62,473 nt of DNA from NCBI RefSeq assembly GCF_014640615.1, contig NZ_BMHH01000023.1, forward strand, positions 1-62,473, in the 5' to 3' direction. The position numbers were made by a program, and so were the translations under genes. This DNA comes from Paramesorhizobium endophyticum (GTDB lineage: Bacteria; Pseudomonadota; Alphaproteobacteria; Rhizobiales; Rhizobiaceae). This document shows positions 2,236-56,313 of this stretch, piece after piece. How positions within the stretch are numbered: the stretch's first letter is position 1; every line of letters begins with the position of its first letter. The notes beneath the pieces are model-generated. The model did no database searches. It was not told the DNA's origin and saw nothing but the letters and a program-made list of their open reading frames with translations.

Positions 2236-2652
2236 ATGAATCAACCCCCGATACCCAGCCTCCTGCGGGAGACACCAAAAGACGAAAACCAAACCACGCT
2301 GGAAGCGGTCGAGGTCGAGTTCGCGCTTGGCGCACAGGATGTGCTGTCCGACGGGTTCGACAGCGCGCTGGCCAAGGCGGCGAAGCTGGTAAATGGCGAG
2401 GTGCTGTTCAACATGCCGGCGCTCGACACCAGCGAGGCGCAGCGGATCGGTGCCATCGCCATTCCGGGCACGCCGCACGACCAGATCATTTTCGTAACCC
2501 TGCTCAATGACGGCATGACGCTCTCGCTTTCGCCGCTGAAGGGCGGCAACGCGCTGTTCGAAAGCCTCGGGCGGAATTATGCTGATGTGATGAAGAAGGT
2601 GAGCGAGATAGGGAGTGGTGAAAACAGTGAGATAGGGAAGAGCGAGTCGTGA
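2236..2652 (+). CDS. Hypothetical protein with repeat-derived C-terminus
   Basis: The protein has 138 residues from the ATG at 2236; an in-frame GTG three codons upstream is also possible. I do not recognise the family. The body (about 15-120) is a compact soluble sequence with VLSDGFDSALAKAAKLVNGE and IGAIAIPGTPHDQIIFVTLL, no membrane segments and no cysteines. The last 15 or so residues (EIGSGENSEIGKSES) are encoded by the GAGATAGGG/GTGAGATAG tract that forms the hairpin repeat at 2601-2700, so the original C-terminus was probably near residue 122. It is convergent with the polysaccharide deacetylase gene, with only 39 bases between the stop codons. Confidence 0.6.
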   Translation: MNQPPIPSLLRETPKDENQTTLEAVEVEFALGAQDVLSDGFDSALAKAAKLVNGEVLFNMPALDTSEAQRIGAIAIPGTPHDQIIFVTLLNDGMTLSLSPLKGGNALFESLGRNYADVMKKVSEIGSGENSEIGKSES

Positions 2653-2700
2653 GATAGTGGCTCCGTTCACTATCACTGTTCACGACCTTCACTATTTCAC
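2601..2700. repeat. GAGATAGT-tract hairpin (family H copy 1)
   Basis: Degenerate repeats of GTGAGATAG(G/T) on the left face CACTATCACTGTTCAC-type repeats on the right, giving an imperfect long hairpin. It lies between convergent genes and contains both stop codons: the hypothetical gene stops inside the left arm, and the deacetylase stop TAG is in the right arm. It may act as a bidirectional terminator. Confidence 0.75.
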
Positions 2701-3438
2701 CGGATTCATCGTTTCCGACGTCTCGACATCCTCCAGCCGCACGAAGCGGAAGCCCCTGGCTTTCAGCGCCAGAACACCCTTGACCACGCCCGCCCCTGCC
2801 GAATGGGTGGGCTGATTGATGTGGGCAATGATGACATCGCCGTCCTTGACCGCAGCGATACGCTTTTCTGCTGCCGCCGCCAGAAGCGAGGCGCCCTGGT
2901 CGCCGTTGAGCGAATAGCCGGCGATCTTGTAGCCCATCTCCTTGATGAGCTTGACGGCATCGAGCGAATAGCGCGCCGTCGCGCCACGATACCAGTGCGG
3001 GGTCACGCCCGTCGCAGCCTTCACCGCGTCTGCGCCGCCCTGCACTTCCGCCCGCACCGCCTCCAGGCTGCCCGCCGTCTTGATGCCATACATGGTCGGC
3101 ACGCTGTCGATGGGCGGCACATGATTGAGGCCGTGGTTCTCCAGCTCGAACAGGTCCGGATGCGCCTTCATGATGCCGAGGGCTTCCGGATTGGTCTTGA
3201 TCCAGCGCCCCGTGATGAAAATCGTCGCCGGGATCTTGTTTTCCACGAGCATGTCGAGAATGCGCCGGTCCGTCTGCCCCATGCACGCATCCAGCGTCAG
3301 CGCCACCTGCGGACCGTTCGCGCCGCCCTTGGCGATGTGGAGTTGGGGCTCGACGATATCGGATGCTTGGGCGGGGGAGAAGGATAGGGCGAGGAGGATG
3401 AGGGGCGTTGCGAAAATATTTAATCGCATATTATTCAC
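2692..3438 (-). CDS. Secreted polysaccharide deacetylase-like protein (NodB fold)
   Basis: The protein has 248 residues with a signal peptide (MNNMRLNIFATPLILLALSF, cleavage near AQA-SD). The NodB homology domain spans about 45-235. Motif 1 reads ALTLDACMG (Asp50) instead of the usual TFDDG. Motif 2 reads ENHGLNH (His102, His106), in keeping with the metal-binding H-x3-H. TPHWYRGATARYS near 150 corresponds to motif 3, and HINQPTH near 205 supplies a late His. The family removes acyl groups from polysaccharides or peptidoglycan in the periplasm; the substrate here is unknown. The altered motif 1 keeps only one of the two acidic residues, so activity is likely but not certain. Confidence 0.85.
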   Translation of the reverse strand: MNNMRLNIFATPLILLALSFSPAQASDIVEPQLHIAKGGANGPQVALTLDACMGQTDRRILDMLVENKIPATIFITGRWIKTNPEALGIMKAHPDLFELENHGLNHVPPIDSVPTMYGIKTAGSLEAVRAEVQGGADAVKAATGVTPHWYRGATARYSLDAVKLIKEMGYKIAGYSLNGDQGASLLAAAAEKRIAAVKDGDVIIAHINQPTHSAGAGVVKGVLALKARGFRFVRLEDVETSETMNPVK

Positions 3439-7673: not shown

Positions 7674-7821
7674 CCCCCCTCCTCTGGCCTGCCGGCCATC
7701 TCCCCCTCAAGGGGGGAGATTGGCTGATAGGGCCGTTACCGCTCATTCTTAAACCTAAATGATTGATGACGGCCTGATCTCCCCCCCTGAGGGGGAGATG
7801 CCCGGCAGGGCAGAGGGGGGT
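7674..7821. repeat. Long mosaic palindrome, family A copy 1
   Basis: The left arm carries TCTGGCCTGCCGGCCATCTC and the right arm GAGATGCCCGGCAGGGCAGA; each arm has its own CTCCCCCTCAAGGGGGGAG-type inner hairpin. It sits at the 5' end of the DUF930 gene and may provide its start context. The remaining gap to 8144 is filled by family C. Confidence 0.85.
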
Positions 7822-7925
7822 ATCGTCAAGCGAAACCGTTTAAACATGGGGAAGCCTATACAATGCGCCATATGTTTGGTGGAATCGGCTGTTTCCGGTT
7901 TAGGGCCGTTGCTGTCATGGAGAGG

Positions 7926-19755: not shown

Positions 19756-20445
19756 ATGGCCGCACCGGAGCTCATCATTTTCGACTGTGACGGCGTTCTG
19801 GTCGATTCGGAAATCATCGCGGCGCGGGTCGAATCCGAGCTCCTGACCGATGCGGGCTACGCCATCGAGCCGGACGAGATCGCCGAGCGATTTTCCGGCC
19901 TGACCTGGCCGAGCATATTGCTGCTGGTGGAGCGGGAAGCCGGAATTCCCATTTCCGCCTCGCTGATCGATAAATCCGACCGAATCCTGGATGAGCGGCT
20001 GGCGAACGAGGTGGAAGCGGTCGAGGGCATCGCCAAGGTGGTTTCGGCGCTGAAGTTGCCCAAATGTATTTGCTCGAACTCCTCGACCAAGCGGCTTGAA
20101 CTGATGCTGAAACGAACAGGACTATACGATCTCTTCGCGCCCGACATCTTCGCCGCCGGCGAGGTGGGCACGAAGAAGGGCAAGCCTGCGCCGGACGTGT
20201 TCCTTTACGCGGCGGAGAAATTCGGCGTCGATCCGAAGAACGTCATCGTGATCGAGGATTCGGTGCACGGCATCCATGGCGCGCGCGCCGCGGGCATGCG
20301 CGTCATCGGCTTCACTGGCGGAGCGCACACCTATCCGGGACACGCCGACCGCCTGACGGAAGCAGGCGCGGAAACAGTGATCAACCGGCACAAGGATTTG
20401 CCTGCTGTTATCGAGGCGATGGCGGAGTGGTCGGAGGCGATTTAG
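19756..20445 (+). CDS. HAD-superfamily phosphatase (beta-phosphoglucomutase-like)
   Basis: The protein has 229 residues. Motif I is IIFDCDGVLVDSE (Asp nucleophile plus DxD). A helical cap spans about 18-85. Motif II is ICSNSS, the Lys is in KKGKPAPDVFLYAAEKFGVD, and motif IV is VIVIEDSVHGIHGARAAGM. All four catalytic motifs are intact, so it is probably an active sugar-phosphate phosphatase. It is divergent from ccrM. Its TAG stop is the first element of the (GTGAGATA)n tract downstream, so the 3' end is defined by that repeat. Confidence 0.92.
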   Translation: MAAPELIIFDCDGVLVDSEIIAARVESELLTDAGYAIEPDEIAERFSGLTWPSILLLVEREAGIPISASLIDKSDRILDERLANEVEAVEGIAKVVSALKLPKCICSNSSTKRLELMLKRTGLYDLFAPDIFAAGEVGTKKGKPAPDVFLYAAEKFGVDPKNVIVIEDSVHGIHGARAAGMRVIGFTGGAHTYPGHADRLTEAGAETVINRHKDLPAVIEAMAEWSEAI

Positions 20446-20560
20446 TGAGATAGTGAGATAGTGAGATAGTGAGATAGTGAGATAGTGAGATAGTGAACCG
20501 TAAGGTAGTGAAGCCGTTTTGCAACTACCTCACTATCTCACTATTCCCTATCTCACTGTT
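20443..20560. repeat. (GTGAGATA)n hairpin (family H copy 2)
   Basis: Six near-perfect tandem octamers GTGAGATA on the left are mirrored on the right by CTACCTCACTATCTCACTAT and TATCTCACTG. Because the unit is 8 bp and holds TGA and TAG, the left tract closes all three rightward frames. It lies between convergent genes and provides the stop codon of the HAD gene. Confidence 0.9.
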
Positions 20561-20562
20561 TT

Positions 20563-20745
20563 TCACGCCGCTGATTTCTTCCTGCTCCTCGGCGGCTCGT
20601 TGAGGTGCGCGAGGGTCTCCTCCGCCTGCTCCAGCGAGAGGCCGATCATCAGCTTGGTGCCTATAATGACGGGAACACCGGTGACCGTATCGAAAATGGC
20701 CCAGGTGTCAGTCGGTTCGAGAATGCGTTCGTATCGTGGTGTCAT
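20563..20745 (-). CDS. Small conserved hypothetical protein
   Basis: The protein has 60 residues from the ATG at 20745, chosen for AGGA eight bases upstream; an ATG at 20754 would add MPP. The sequence contains TDTWAIFDTVTGVPVIIGTK and SLEQAEETLAHLNEP, then a basic tail PRSRKKSAA. No membrane segment, cysteine or known motif is evident. Short proteins of this pattern occur in Rhizobiales; the function is unknown. It is convergent with the HAD gene. Confidence 0.6.
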   Translation of the reverse strand: MTPRYERILEPTDTWAIFDTVTGVPVIIGTKLMIGLSLEQAEETLAHLNEPPRSRKKSAA

Positions 20746-34034: not shown

Positions 34035-35000
34035 TTAAAGCACCAGACCGTATTCGGCCGGCGAGTTGATCTGGCGGTGGAACCGCATGCGGCGGACATA
34101 TTCCATCGGGTCCTTCTTGACGACGAAACTGCCATCGGGAACCGTCAGCCAGTCGTAAAGCCGGGTCAGCATGAAGCGCAGCGCCGCGCCGCGCGACAGA
34201 ATGGGCAGCGCCGCTGCCTCCTCAGGAGAAAGCGGGCGGACGGAATTGTAGCCCTTGAGCAGCGCCGTGCCCTTGGTCAGGTTGAAGGAGAAATCCTTCT
34301 CGAAGCACCAGGCATTAAGGCAGACCGCCACATCATAGGCGAGCAGATCGGTCGAGGCGAAATAAAAGTCGATAAGGCCGGAAAGCCGGTCGCCCAGGAA
34401 GAAGACATTATCCGGAAAGAGATCGGCATGGATGACGCCTGATGGCAGCGTCGACGGCCAGTTCGCTTCGAGAAAGGCAAGGTCGCTTTCTGCTTCCGCC
34501 ACCAGCCCCGGCTCCTCCTCGTCGGCGCGGTCCCTCGCCTTCTCCCAGAGCGGACGCCAGCCGGAAACGGAGAGCGCATTCTCCCGCTGCATGGGAAAAT
34601 CCTGCCCCGCCAGATGCAGCCGCGCCAGCGCCTCGCCGACCGCATGGCAATGGGCGACGGTCGGGCGGCGCATCCACATGCCTTCGAGGAAGGTGACGAT
34701 GGCGGCGGGCCGTCCGGCAAGCTCGCCGATGACAGCGCCGTCCTTGCGATGCACCGGCAGGGGACAGTCGATGCCGTTTTTCGCCAGATGCTGCATCAGC
34801 CCCAGGAAAAACGGAAGGTCGTTCCGGTTCACCCGCTTTTCATAGAGCGTCAGGATAAAGGAGCCCTTGTCCGTGCGCAGCAGATAGTTGGAATTCTCCA
34901 CGCCCTCGGCAATGCCCTTGTAAGACATGAGGCAGCCGATGTCGTACAGGTCCAGAAATGCGGCGAGTTCGATCTCGTTGATGTCGGTGTAGACGGCCAT
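34035..35000 (-). CDS. thrB: Homoserine kinase (APH-like class)
   Basis: This ThrB is the aminoglycoside-phosphotransferase-fold type found in alphaproteobacteria and pseudomonads, and it phosphorylates homoserine for ThrC. The protein has 321 residues. Visible marks: [20 protein letters not shown] (nucleotide loop), the catalytic Brenner motif [17 protein letters not shown] with HxDxxxxN, and the metal-binding [22 protein letters not shown]. The position between ispH and rnhA is conserved in Rhizobiales. A GTGAGATAG hairpin lies immediately upstream of the start. Confidence 0.96.
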
Positions 35001-35009
35001 GGGGATTCC

Positions 35010-35093
35010 AGTGAGATAGGGAATAGTGAGGTAGTGAGATAGTAAAATAGCCCTACCTCACTATCTCACTGTTCACTACCTCACTACCTCTCC
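35010..35093. repeat. GTGAGATAG/GTGAGGTAG hairpin (family H copy 3)
   Basis: GTGAGATAGGGAATAGTGAG faces CCTACCTCACTATCTCACTG and further CACTACCTCACTACCTC. The ispH stop TAG lies in the right arm. The junction is between ispH and thrB, transcribed leftward. Confidence 0.88.
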
Positions 35094-36085
35094 CCATTCA
35101 CAAACGCCATATCCCGCGGCGTCAGTTCCACATCGCGCAGCTCGCGATTGACGAGAAAATTCTCGGTCTCGATGGCGGTTTCGGCGAGTTCGATCGTCAC
35201 GTCGTAGCGGTCGGAGAAGGCTTCGATGATCTCATCCACGATGATCTCAGGAGCGGACGCACCGGCGGAGAGGCCGACGACCGAGATGTCGCCGATGCGG
35301 TCCCACTCGATATCGGCAGCGCGCTGCACCAGCATGGACTGGCGGGCGCCGGCGCGCTCGGCCACTTCGACGAGGCGCTTGGAATTGGAGGAATTGGGCG
35401 CGCCGACGATGAGGAACAGATCACAGCCGGGGGCGGCTTCCTTCACCGCCTCCTGCCGGTTGGTTGTGGCGTAGCAGATCGATTCGGCTGATGGGGCGGT
35501 CAGTTCCGGGAAGCGGCGCTGCAACACCGCGATGATGCCCGCCGTATCGTCCACCGAAAGCGTGGTCTGGGTGACAAAGCCGAGCTTCGACGGATCCTCC
35601 GGCTGGTAGGCTTCGGCATCGTCAAGCGTTTCGATGAGCGTCACCGAACCCCCGGGGAGCTGGCCCATGGTGCCAATAACCTCGGGATGGCCGGAATGGC
35701 CGATGAGGATGACATGGCGGCCAAGGCGCTGGTGGCGCATGGCCTGTTTGTGGACCTTGGAGACGAGCGGGCATGTGGCGTCGAGATAGAACAAATTCTT
35801 CGCCATCGCGTCCTCGGGCACGGATTTCGGCACGCCATGGGCGGAGAAGACGACCGGCTGGCCGCGATGCGCCTCCGGGATTTCGTCCAGTTCCTCGACA
35901 AAGACAGCTCCACGCGCCTGCAAGCCCTGCACGACATAGCGATTATGCACGATTTCATGGCGCACATAGATCGGCGCGCCATATTTCTTGAGCGCGAGCA
36001 CCACGATCTGAATCGCCCGGTCCACGCCGGCGCAAAAGCCGCGCGGTCCGCACAGGCGAATGGTCAGGGGGTGTTTGGCGATCAT
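35084..36085 (-). CDS. ispH: 4-hydroxy-3-methylbut-2-enyl diphosphate reductase
   Basis: IspH is the last MEP-pathway enzyme, making IPP and DMAPP with a [4Fe-4S] cluster. The protein has 333 residues. The three cluster cysteines are in [16 protein letters not shown] (Cys at about 18), [20 protein letters not shown] (about 109) and a third in the [15 protein letters not shown] segment (about 204). The substrate-binding residues [24 protein letters not shown] and [15 protein letters not shown] are present. Dxs, the first enzyme of the pathway, is also in this window. Confidence 0.97.
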
Positions 36086-38505: not shown

Positions 38506-38670
38506 TTACCTAACGCCAGTCCGGACGGAAAACCGCTTCACACTTTTCCTGGACTGGCTCTTACCTAACGCCAGTCCGGACGGAAAACCGCTTCACACTT
38601 TTCCTGGACTGGCTCTTACCTAACGCCAGTCCGGACGGAAAACCGCTTCACACTTTTCCTGGACTGGCTC
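38506..38670. repeat. Three perfect 55-bp tandem repeats (family G)
   Basis: The unit starts at TTACCTAACGCCAGTCCGGA, is repeated exactly at 38506, 38561 and 38616, and is followed by a 17-base partial fourth copy at 38671-38687. Each unit holds a 44-bp palindromic core, GCCAGTCC...GGACTGGC, with an inner ACCGCTTCACACTTTTCCTG. The array fills the 257-base ctaG-coxC gap. A variant core is inside the rlmD-like gene at 48408-48451. Confidence 0.95.
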
Positions 38671-38703
38671 TTACTTAACGCCAGTCCTTTCCCGGACCAG
38701 CTT

Positions 38704-40949: not shown

Positions 40950-42708
<1,759 letters not shown>

Positions 42709-42718
42709 AAAGGTCGGC

Positions 42719-43597
42719 TTAGTTACCAGCCACCTTAACATTCTTTTCCGCGTCGATGGAGGCCATCAGCGCCTTGTTTGCGCCCTGCAGGTCGTTGCGG
42801 GCCGCGGTCAGCCATGTGTCATATTGCTCCTGGCTGACGACACGCACGGCGATGGGCATGAACGCATGGTCCTTGCCGCACAGCTCCGAGCACTGGCCGT
42901 AGTAAAGGCCCGGCTTGTCGGCCTTGAACCAGGTTTCATTGATGCGTCCGGGAACGGCATCCATCTTCACGCCGAAGGCGGGCATCGCCCAGGAGTGGAT
43001 CACGTCGGCGCCCGTCACCAGGAGGCGGACGGTGGTGTTAACAGGAACGACCACTTCATTATCCACCGCGAGCAGGCGCGGATAGACGGCGCGGTCTTCT
43101 TTGCCGGCGGCCGCGCGGTCGCCATCCTGCAGCAGCAGCGAATCGAAGCTGACCGGGTTATCGACCTGGTATTCGTAGCCCCAGTACCACTGGTAGCCAG
43201 TCGCCTTGACGGTCAGCTTCGCCTCGTCAGGGGAATATTGCGCCGTGAGCAACTGGAAGGACGGGATGGCGAGGAACAGGAGTACAATCACCGGGGCGAC
43301 GGTCCAGACCACCTCGATCAGCGTGTTGTGGCTGACCTTGGACGGCTCGGGATTGACGCTGGCGCGATAGCGCAGGATGCACCAGATGAGCAGCACCAGC
43401 ACGAGAACCGTAATCGGGACGATGAACCAGAGCGTATAAGCCTCGAACCAGTGAATCTGCGCGGCGATGCCGGTGGCCGCCTCCTGAAACCTCCACTCCC
43501 ATGGCCGGGGCTGATCCGCATGCGCGGCCGGGCTGGACAAGAGCACCGCGAGAGCGCCCCCCAAAGCACCCATCGTCGTGACAATGTTCTTATTCAC
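42719..43597 (-). CDS. coxB: Cytochrome c oxidase subunit II
   Basis: The protein has 292 residues from a GTG (MNKNIVTTMGAL) with GGGAGAATC upstream. The signal peptide ends near PAAHA-DQ. Two transmembrane helices (about 55-78 and 95-118) precede the periplasmic cupredoxin domain. The CuA ligands are seen in VIHSWAMPAFGVKMD and YYGQCSELCGKDHAFMPIAV (His, two Cys, His, Met). It accepts electrons from cytochrome c. It is the first gene of the leftward cox cluster, so the main promoter should lie in 43598-43850. Confidence 0.97.
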   Translation of the reverse strand: MNKNIVTTMGALGGALAVLLSSPAAHADQPRPWEWRFQEAATGIAAQIHWFEAYTLWFIVPITVLVLVLLIWCILRYRASVNPEPSKVSHNTLIEVVWTVAPVIVLLFLAIPSFQLLTAQYSPDEAKLTVKATGYQWYWGYEYQVDNPVSFDSLLLQDGDRAAAGKEDRAVYPRLLAVDNEVVVPVNTTVRLLVTGADVIHSWAMPAFGVKMDAVPGRINETWFKADKPGLYYGQCSELCGKDHAFMPIAVRVVSQEQYDTWLTAARNDLQGANKALMASIDAEKNVKVAGN

Positions 43598-43846
43598 GTA
43601 AGATTCTCCCGATTGCAGGCCTGCTTCCATATTCTTTGGCCGGGCGTCACAATGCTGCCCGGTTCTCGCCCGTGTTCAAACCACACAATATCCCACACCG
43701 CAAGGAAGGCGAAGATCATCCCATGCGGCATTTTTGCGCGTTTGCTTTATATCAAGGCAATGGAGGCAGCGTACGATCGCGAAGACTGCCTTATCGATAA
43801 TGAAAACGACACTGCCCCGGGCTCGTTTCGTATTCTGATCAGCCCA

Positions 43847-52086: not shown

Positions 52087-52140
52087 AAGGGAGTAAGGGA
52101 AGGGGAGTATGTGTCCCCTTCCCTACTCCCTTACTCCCTC
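52087..52140. repeat. GGGAGTAAGGG hairpin (family H variant, copy 5)
   Basis: AAGGGAGTAAGGGAAGGGGA is mirrored by TCCCCTTCCCTACTCCCTTA around GTATGTG. It abuts the pirin stop codon and lies 58 bases upstream of the dxs GTG. Confidence 0.88.
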
Positions 52141-53065
52141 AACTTTCCGGCAGCGGAATGAACTCTTCCTCATCCCCCGGCACGATGCCGAAACGGCCGG
52201 TGCGCCATTCTTCCTTGGCCTGCTCGATGCGCTCTTTCGAAGAGGAAACGAAGTTCCACCAGATATAGCGCTTCGAGGAAAGTGCAGCGCCGCCGAAGAG
52301 CATGACATGCGCCGCATGGTCCTCCGCAGCGGATATAATGATCTCATCGCCGGCGCGGAAGGCGAGAAGCCGGTCGGACTGGAAAGTTTCGCCTGAAATT
52401 TCGACCGCGCCGTCGAGAATATAGATGGCGCGCTCCTCCGCTGCGTTGGGGATGACGAAACGGCCGCCGGGCGCGATGCGGATATCGGCATAGAGCGTGT
52501 CGCTATATTGCGTGACCGGCGATTTTTCCCCATGCAACGCGCCGATGATAAGGCGTGCCTCAACGTTTTTGTCCCGAATCTGCGGCAGCTTGGCGGCTAC
52601 AGTGTGGTCGAAAGCGGGCGACGTCTCCTCCAGCGCGTCCGGCAGGGCAAGCCATGTCTGCAGGCCGGAGATGGAGAGCGGACCGGCGCGAAGCTCCTCC
52701 GGCGAGCGCTCGGAATGGACGATGCCCCGCCCCGCCGTCATCATATTCACATCGCCCGGCGCGATCACCATCTGCGTGCCCAGGCTGTCGCGATGGCGGA
52801 TCTGGCCGTCGAAGAGGTAGGTGACGGTGGAAAGGCCAATATGCGGATGGGGGCGCACGTCGATGGCCGCGCCGGGGCGCAGCAAGGCCGGGCCCATGCG
52901 GTCGAAGAAGATGAACGGTCCCACCAGCCGCCGCTTGGCAGTGGGAAGCGCGCGCCGCACCTCGAGCCCGCCAATGTCGCTGGTGCGCGGGATGATCAGC
53001 GTCTCGATGGAATCGACCGCGTGAGAGTCGCCTGGCTCGGGATCGGTGCCCGGGAAAAAGCTCAT
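52139..53065 (-). CDS. Pirin family protein
   Basis: The protein has 308 residues and a bicupin fold. The N-terminal cupin carries the metal-binding pattern VRPHPHIGLSTVTYLFDGQI (two His) with HRDSLGT and ...GIVHSERSPEE (His, Glu), typical of pirins including YhaK-like quercetinases. The C-terminal cupin has AGDEIIISAAEDHAAHVMLF and a conserved YIWWNFVSSSKERIEQAKEE tail. The function varies in the family (redox sensing, dioxygenase); no specific role can be assigned. It is separated from dxs by a GGGAGTAAGG hairpin. Confidence 0.92.
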   Translation of the reverse strand: MSFFPGTDPEPGDSHAVDSIETLIIPRTSDIGGLEVRRALPTAKRRLVGPFIFFDRMGPALLRPGAAIDVRPHPHIGLSTVTYLFDGQIRHRDSLGTQMVIAPGDVNMMTAGRGIVHSERSPEELRAGPLSISGLQTWLALPDALEETSPAFDHTVAAKLPQIRDKNVEARLIIGALHGEKSPVTQYSDTLYADIRIAPGGRFVIPNAAEERAIYILDGAVEISGETFQSDRLLAFRAGDEIIISAAEDHAAHVMLFGGAALSSKRYIWWNFVSSSKERIEQAKEEWRTGRFGIVPGDEEEFIPLPES

Positions 53066-55495: not shown

Positions 55496-56008
55496 ATGGA
55501 ACTCATCCATTCCTACCTTGTGGCCTATGGAGCGGTTGCGCTGTTCGTCATCATCTATTTCGAATCGCTCGGCGCGCCGCTGCCCGGCGAAAGCGCGCTG
55601 ATCGCCTCGTCGCTGCTGGCGCTGCATGGCGACCTCAACCTCTATCATGTGCTGATCGCGGTCTTCTGCGGCGCGGTGCTGGGCGACAGCACGGGCTATC
55701 TCATCGGCCATCTCGGCGGGGTCAAGCTCATCGCCCGCTATGGCTATCTGGTGCGGCTGACGCCGGAGCGGCTGCAGGAATTCGAAAATGTCTTCACGAA
55801 AAAGGGGCCGTATATCGTCGCCACCGCGCGCTTCGTGCCCGTGCTGCGGCAATTGAACGGGATCGTCGCGGGTTCGATGAAAATGCCCTGGCCGCATTTC
55901 CTCATCGCCAATGCGATAGGCGCCGCCGCCTGGACGCTGCTATGGGGCGCAGGGCCCTATTTCTTCAGCGATTTCTTTCATCCGTTCTATGAGAGGATGA
56001 GAGAGTGA
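55496..56008 (+). CDS. DedA family membrane protein
   Basis: The protein has 170 residues; GTAGGAATTA precedes the ATG. The DedA pattern is present: FESLGAPLPGESALIASSLL, CGAVLGDSTGYLIGHLGG, and GPYIVATARFVPVLRQLNGIVAGSMKM with the conserved FxxxR...G region, ending in a helix with AIGAAAWTLLWGAGPYFF. It is somewhat short for DedA (about 200) because the C-terminal helix ends at FYERMRE, where the family H repeat begins. DedA proteins move lipids such as undecaprenyl phosphate or support the proton gradient; the role here is unspecified. Confidence 0.92.
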   Translation: MELIHSYLVAYGAVALFVIIYFESLGAPLPGESALIASSLLALHGDLNLYHVLIAVFCGAVLGDSTGYLIGHLGGVKLIARYGYLVRLTPERLQEFENVFTKKGPYIVATARFVPVLRQLNGIVAGSMKMPWPHFLIANAIGAAAWTLLWGAGPYFFSDFFHPFYERMRE

Positions 56009-56071
56009 GTAGTGAGTAGTGAATTAGATGATTTTCTATCTCACTACTCACTATCTCACTATTCACTATCT
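56003..56071. repeat. GTGAGTAGTGA-tract hairpin (family H copy 6)
   Basis: GAGTGAGTAGTGAGTAGTGAA faces CTATCTCACTACTCACTATC. It lies between convergent dedA and xseB, and both stops are inside: the dedA TGA is in the left arm, and the xseB TAG is in CACTATCTAATGG on the right. Confidence 0.9.
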
Positions 56072-56313
56072 AATGGCTCCACCCCCACGGGCTGGCCATC
56101 GCGCCCGAGACGGATTTTCTCGACCTTGTCCTCGGCGGCCTTCAGCAGCGCGTCGCAATGCTTTTTCAGGGCTTCGCCGCGCTCATAGATGCGGATGGAC
56201 TGGTCGAGCGGCACGTCCCCCCGCTCCAGATCTTCCACAATGCGTTCCAATTGCTCCAGCGCCTGCTCGAAGCTCATCGCGGCAATGTCGGCATTGGCGT
56301 TTTCGTCGGCCAT
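56059..56313 (-). CDS. xseB: Exodeoxyribonuclease VII small subunit
   Basis: The protein has 84 residues. [40 protein letters not shown] and [17 protein letters not shown] form the characteristic two-helix XseB. It assembles in several copies on XseA, which is not in this window, to degrade single-stranded DNA. The last residues (LDSE) are read from the family H repeat. It lies three bases after the histone-deacetylase-like gene stop, so the two form an operon. Confidence 0.96.

Follow-up and report, generated by a model that had tools for sequence, protein, structure and literature searches.

The intervening sequence in the 23S rRNA gene of Coxiella is 428 nt long, has a 28 bp stem with an S23 open reading frame (ORF) in its loop, and is excised by RNase III. 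Two to three tandem heptamers lie beside the ORF, and their number differs between strains. In the accessible text of that paper, S23 or four-helix-bundle proteins have no known function (PMC4990558). It is also the only description of such arrays around S23 genes that came up in searches of the open-licence literature.

Other short repeats have some of these properties. The P6b stem-loop of the Nostoc tRNA-Leu intron is built from a 7-nt motif, either TDNGATT or NNTGAGT; its length changes by whole repeats, and one motif class has repeatedly replaced the other (PMC4476775, accessible text). The TAACTGA heptamers of the Beggiatoaceae are intergenic, contain stops in all three frames and in some cases overlap gene ends (PMC4679880, accessible text). 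The RIME, Sm-repeats and ABC palindromes of Sinorhizobium are likewise dispersed intergenic repeats of the Rhizobiaceae (PMC2573895), their likeness to the present repeats being one of description in the accessible text.

The DNA analysed here is a stretch of 62,473 nt (the window), in which six hairpins made of short tandem units lie between protein genes. Like the 23S rRNA intervening sequence, they have terminal inverted repeats that form a long stem, and the S23 ORF is found in the loop of full-length relatives, one of which is in this genome. The window copies differ in having no ORF, in lying between protein genes rather than inside a 23S rRNA gene, and in the arms of their type, which are mostly of 7-8-mers with units that differ between species. 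The window elements are intervening-sequence-like in architecture but are not members of the rRNA class, since they are located elsewhere and the ORF is missing from all six. The NNTGAGT motif of Nostoc P6b fits the window unit AGTGAGT, although P6b is one locus inside a group I intron and the accessible text on it mentions no protein gene. Unlike the window hairpins, the TAACTGA heptamers are described in the accessible text as direct repeats, mainly toward start codons, that form no hairpin. We consider it likely that the six tracts belong, as gene-less (solo) copies, to a family of hairpin elements in which the full-length members carry a four-helix-bundle gene as their loop.

The six hairpins

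A reading of the window from its sequence alone had reported six hairpins built from short tandem units. All six are present, with arms that are arrays of 7-8 bp units, and all are at gene ends (Table 1). Tandem Repeats Finder (TRF) assigned a period of 7-8 to the arrays at five sites; the tract at 2601 is too degenerate for TRF. With up to 3 mismatches, GTGAGATAGTGAGATA occurs 13 times in the window, against a mean of 0.09 and a maximum of 1 in shuffled sequence. Across the 4.93 Mb genome, of which the window is contig 23, GTGAGATAGTGAGATAG with up to 2 mismatches has 22 forward and 22 reverse places, overlapping places being counted apart, and the control has none. A search of the window against Rfam at gathering scores gave no matches, and six unit strings that were looked for had no match in the open-licence PubMed Central literature.

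Table 1. Repeat hairpins of the window, with their units and neighbouring genes
Feature	Position	Strand	Units	Neighbouring genes
Putative solo hairpin element	2601..2703	none	degenerate GTGAGATA/GGGAGTG words	convergent genes 2236-2652 (+) and 2692-3438 (-)
Left arm of 20443 hairpin	20443..20496	+	6.8 copies of TAGTGAGA, with the G-rich strand pointing inward	HAD-hydrolase gene, which stops at the first TAG
Right arm of 20443 hairpin	20524..20557	-	4.4 copies of the complementary unit	convergent gene 20563-20745 (-) stops 5 nt past the arm
Putative solo hairpin element (site 35010)	34999..35097	none	GTGAGATA/GTGAGGTA/GGGAATA	LytB/ispH gene 35084-36085 (-), stop within the right arm; APH-family gene 34035-35000 (-)
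Putative solo hairpin element (site 42626)	42618..42715	none	GGGAGTAA words, apex AGTATGTTT	COX2 42719-43630 (-); COX1 40950-42602 (-)
Putative solo hairpin element	52087..52139	none	GGGAGTAA/GGGAAGGG	3' of pirin gene 52139-53065 (-)
Putative solo hairpin element (site 56003)	55989..56074	none	AGTGAGT/GTGAGATA	convergent VTT-domain gene 55496-56008 (+) and gene 56059-56313 (-), both stops inside

Other repeats were also seen in the window. At least seven copies of a different palindrome family (CCCCCCTCTGCCCTGCCGGGCATCTCCCCC...), the arms of which measure 44-68 bp, are present, at 7677, 11639, 26776, 33310, 36108, 39339 and 49913. Another, around GTGACAAGCAC, has 39-45-bp arms and 72-83-nt loops and is found at 7925, 22702 and 22971. 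A 55-bp direct repeat is present in 3.3 copies, 99% alike, at 38506-38687. Among the database records, one named Bacillus subtilis SK6B4 has, at locus L039, a contig very like Pseudochrobactrum, and looks mislabelled or contaminated.

Position relative to genes

All gene calls come from our own simple caller. None of the six sites is more than 12 nt away from the 3' end of a gene. Stops lie inside the repeat at 2601 and 56003 for both genes and at 35010 for one gene, and at the edge of the repeat at 20443 and 52087; at 42626 the stop is 12 nt outside. The gene calls thus agree with the sequence-only reading that a stop is inside or at the edge of the repeat at five of the six sites and that both convergent genes end within it at 2601 and 56003, and the sixth site, 42626, is also just 3' of a gene. 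The flanking genes are convergent at 2601, 20443 and 56003 and co-directional at 35010, 42626 and 52087. That the units close reading frames was likewise correct: the inward strand has a stop, so a frame that runs into the hairpin from either direction is soon closed within an arm.

For a wider census, 2.45 Mb of four genomes, in eight stretches, were scanned for tandem segments (lag 6-10) that make up one arm of a gapped palindrome. Sites with a palindrome score of at least 16 numbered five in the window against none in one shuffled copy, and 52 in the eight stretches against six. A single lexicon, judged by eye, is used in 44 of the 52: GTGAGATA, GTGAGGTA, GTGAGTA, GTGAATG, GGGAGTAA, GGGGAATA, GGCAGTAA and near variants. 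A composition filter gave 53 sites of all scores, from which seven were dropped by eye as not of the hairpin family and to which five were added by hand (two degenerate sites and three met as orthologues), leaving 51.

Nineteen of the 51 sites are in convergent, 30 in co-directional and 2 in divergent gaps, where gaps of at least 50 nt number 220, 873 and 362, respectively. Scarcity in divergent gaps is common to other palindromes (15 of 230) and so is not particular to the hairpin family. Nearness to stop codons is particular to it: 44 of 49 sites (51 less the two between divergent gene calls, which have no stop on their side) overlap a stop or are within 20 nt of one (median -3). Of the other intergenic palindromes, drawn from five of the eight stretches, 40 of 215 do so (median 43). 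The role at gene ends that had been proposed from the sequence stands only in part: the placement is real and strong, but the idea that the repeats define or replace the ends is not supported by the C-termini of orthologues.

Gene ends and transcription termination

It had been suggested that the repeat could end both translation and transcription and in this way define where genes end. The placement, the stops within the units and the stable stems predicted for 68 site-directions (-14 to -65 kcal/mol) are what such a function would lead one to expect. There is also a real repeat-encoded tail. At 2601, the gene on the forward strand is 11 residues longer than in genomes G005 and G001 and its last approximately 17 residues are encoded by the repeat, and the convergent gene, for a polysaccharide deacetylase, is approximately 22 residues shorter than in relatives. 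Repeat-made C-terminal tails do exist, above all at this site.

This is a clear exception, however, and the claim that the repeat defines gene ends is mostly wrong, because orthologues usually share the C-terminus without it. In all, 64 comparisons of C-termini were made, some pairs being counted in each direction. The difference is no more than 3 residues in 26 of the 30 comparisons in which both genes have the element, and in 26 of the 34 flagged by script as element-free. In at least six of these 34 a short or offset element is present after all, the C-terminus being unchanged in every case, so that a cleaner count is 20 of at most 28. For example, the HAD protein at 20443 ends in WSEAI, WSEEV or WSEAL in the five closest relatives, whether the repeat is present or absent.

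As in intrinsic terminators, a stable stem-loop is present just 3' of the stop; unlike them, the hairpins have no consistent U-tract. The 12 nt at the 3' end of the stem contain on average 3.3 T over the 68 site-directions, and 5 or more T in 17 of the 68, several of these coming, by eye, from the arm itself. Sense-strand G.U and A.C mismatches at co-directional sites number 47 and 40, no clear excess of the former. COX2 and COX1 are often co-transcribed. With 42626 between these two genes and 35010 between the LytB/ispH and APH-family genes, not all sites need be operon ends. The orthologous gaps without the element are also not enriched in hairpins. We judge a stop and terminator function that defines gene ends to be distinctly improbable.

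Replacement of an ordinary hairpin by the element was considered and rejected on the same gaps: single examples look convincing but the set does not, as the 14 element-free orthologous gaps have a median palindrome score of 7.5 against background medians of 8-10.

Orthologous sites

All six window sites have syntenic counterparts in G005 and G001, and different units are found at orthologous sites. At 20443, the units are GTGAGATA in G000 (this genome), AAGGCAGT in G005 and GTGAGATA/GGGAACA in G001. At position 64624 of G000_C1 and its orthologues, G000 has GTGAGTA-type words, G005 has GGCAGTA and G001 has GGGAGTAA. At 56003, GTGAGTA in G000 corresponds to GGTGAAT in G001, and G005 has no such element. 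Similar units are kept at some sites, as at 42626 (G000 and G001) and at the site at 110770 in G005 and 200336 in G001. In a second genus, the gene end beside rlmN carries the element in four species and not in a fifth, while at another gene end the units of three species differ and two species have no clear element.

The two arms of one site resemble each other in their words. The word distance between them is 0.242, against 0.506 when permuted within the genome, and none of 5000 permutations reached the observed value for 49 sites (51 less two without words on one arm); for G005 alone and G001 alone, 5 and 8 of 5000 did so.

The sequence-only reading held that the tracts grow and convert rather than being copied as one element. 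In its favour, arm lengths vary independently, which fits slippage, and both arms change together between species. It does not hold throughout, in that tracts of this type have been copied as whole elements in another genus (G021).

The hairpins could instead be 3' stem-loops grown locally, through slippage expansion and template switching (quasipalindrome correction), the shared words being due to a mutational or structural preference and not to descent. Template switching is described as able to create and maintain hairpins in the accessible text of a published study (PMC8794818). The number of units varies independently between the arms of the G021 copies, and at the site at 110770 in G005 and 200336 in G001 one arm is uniform in G001 and mixed in G005, the other arm being nearly the same. 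Local growth is hard to reconcile with the occurrence of the same words in the same polarity at unrelated sites, or with the same words in distant genera, and we think it unlikely; the shared cores and the protein gene described below also speak against it.

Distribution and polarity

In genome G021, one near-identical core recurs at seven loci, with a (AGTAAGGG)n array on one side and a (TATTCCCC)n array on the other, n being different on each side. One further copy of this core is in G123, and none is in the nine other genomes searched. When the seven copies were checked for target-site duplication, as in a MITE of a DDE transposon, TA was seen by eye at the left edge of all seven, but TA is also within the unit, and no duplication could be made out. 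In the window genus, the theme-B sites share the apex GGGAGTATGTTT, which is present at six places against 0.29 expected. Seven copies with one core, and an apex common to six sites, speak against local growth.

By word pattern, the G-rich strand runs inward in 45 of 45 array pairs and the reverse was not seen; the pattern itself has a background (114 arrays, 32 with reversed words). A further 24 arrays have no partner by the strict pairing test, two of these being inside genes.

An octamer-pattern search was positive in 18 of 297 Rhizobiaceae genomes and, in a sample of the class, in one of 385, namely this genome; the pattern misses 7-mers, so the spread is understated. A search of a plasmid collection with one G021 locus returned 13 records, none with most of the query.

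Many small intergenic palindromes near gene ends also bring to mind REP or REPIN sequences, which would be mobilised by a Y1 (RAYT) transposase. The Y1_Tnp domain (PF01797) was found in four of 16 genomes tested, this genome included, but not in the element-rich G001, G005 and G021, although a divergent Y1 family would escape a search with PF01797. We give this explanation very little credence.

Association with a four-helix-bundle gene

For a family of hairpin elements with a gene as the loop in its full-length members, the array at C3:311181 of this genome is informative. Apparently unpaired at first, it faces an array at 311610 across an ORF, so that at C3:311181-311640 a four-helix-bundle gene lies between GTGAGTA/GGGAATA and GTGAGATA arrays. 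The ORF matches PF05635 (4e-35), TIGR02436 (3e-35) and PDB entry 2gsc (XCC0516; 8e-18), and this genome has one such gene. A protein gene inside arrays is a further point against local growth of stem-loops.

PF05635 was found at 22 places in 14 of 18 genomes searched, several of them adjoining arrays that were already known, and by eye inverted arrays are on both sides of all 22. Loci for further scoring were not a random sample: they comprised all 22 from the 18 genomes, 26 further best-scoring ones and 24 others. A score that uses no lexicon found inverted flanks at 45 of 48 Rhizobiaceae loci, tandem flanks at 43 and the two together at 43; for control flanks 650 nt farther out the numbers are 1, 6 and 1, respectively. 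Two of the five that fail are cut by contig ends. Five of five further Rhizobiaceae loci also pass. The pass rate in other Proteobacteria is 11 of 19 loci, or 11 of 15 if only loci with full flanks are counted (controls: 2 of 15), and every one of the 19 scored arms has a period of 7. Seven of eight Nostoc-type and Catenovulum loci, hand-picked from the listed PF05635 places and scored with no control, have period 7 or 9 arrays with an inverted score of at least 16, and one of these has GGGAGTA units, as in the window.

The arms around the Rhizobiaceae genes are G-rich inward in 44 of 44 cases on the left and 46 of 46 on the right. Polarity was scored in Rhizobiaceae only, and at least one array from Nostoc, L364, has C-rich units on its left side. 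At locus L310, the flank upstream of the four-helix-bundle gene has approximately 13 GTGAGCA copies and the other side approximately 3, giving a strongly lopsided hairpin. The ending of long open frames at array edges (75 of 90 against 6 of 90) was not used, being biased by the stops that the arrays have in all frames.

Discussion

The solo hairpins and the gene-bearing loci agree in their words, period, polarity and position at gene ends. One site, which from the protein ends we take to be that of acyl-CoA dehydrogenase and hydroxyisobutyrate dehydrogenase, carries the gene in two genomes that belong to genus g73 (L314 and L348) and a solo GGCAGTA hairpin in one genome of genus g98 (L207). 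Position 238112 of G000_C1 is an empty site where G123 and G021 have the gene with arrays, and an empty site is also indicated at five further loci, as judged from the look of the upstream gene end. The gene is present in 14 of 18 octamer-positive genomes and 80 of 279 others (one-sided p of 4e-5, kinship uncorrected); both searches drew 297 genomes, and the genome handles shown agree. By genus, it is present in nine of nine pattern-positive genera and 48 of 109 overall, again with kinship uncorrected.

Against such an element, four of the 18 octamer-positive genomes do not have the gene. It is absent at all six window sites, and the loci examined include no gene-bearing orthologue of these sites. 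The solo copies could be the older form, with the gene inserted later, since solo hairpins are far more numerous than the gene.

In each tract the left arm is an inward 7-8-nt G-rich tandem array and the right arm its inverted counterpart. If these are elements of this kind, insertion would take place at or beside stop codons and may be tolerated there because the inward strand has stops and entry from either side would be equivalent. The arms would lengthen by slippage, and could be kept alike through arm-to-arm copying by template switching or through replacement by another copy. The stem in RNA may be a substrate for RNase III or a barrier at the 3' end, as for rRNA intervening sequences, and the four-helix-bundle protein may aid spread or maintenance in trans.

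More tentatively, the four-helix-bundle or S23 genes across bacteria may belong to a single class of selfish hairpin element, the stem of which is an inverted 7-9-mer array continually renewed by the element, which lands at stop codons and which sheds gene-less copies by the dozen. Its special cases would then be the intervening sequences of rRNA and, in the Nostoc tRNA intron, the heptamer stems. This wider reading we regard as possible, with the balance somewhat against it.

Sites at which the unit differs between orthologues although the two arms remain alike offer a natural system in which to study how hairpins stay matched during sequence replacement. Puzzling short tandem repeats at gene ends gain a source, and there is a warning that C-terminal tails such as that at 2601 can be made by a repeat. 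The genes found between inverted heptamers or octamers in Proteobacteria and Nostoc-type genomes make the protein family testable as part of an element. If the four-helix-bundle genes are indeed one selfish class, this would provide a biology for a large orphan protein family.
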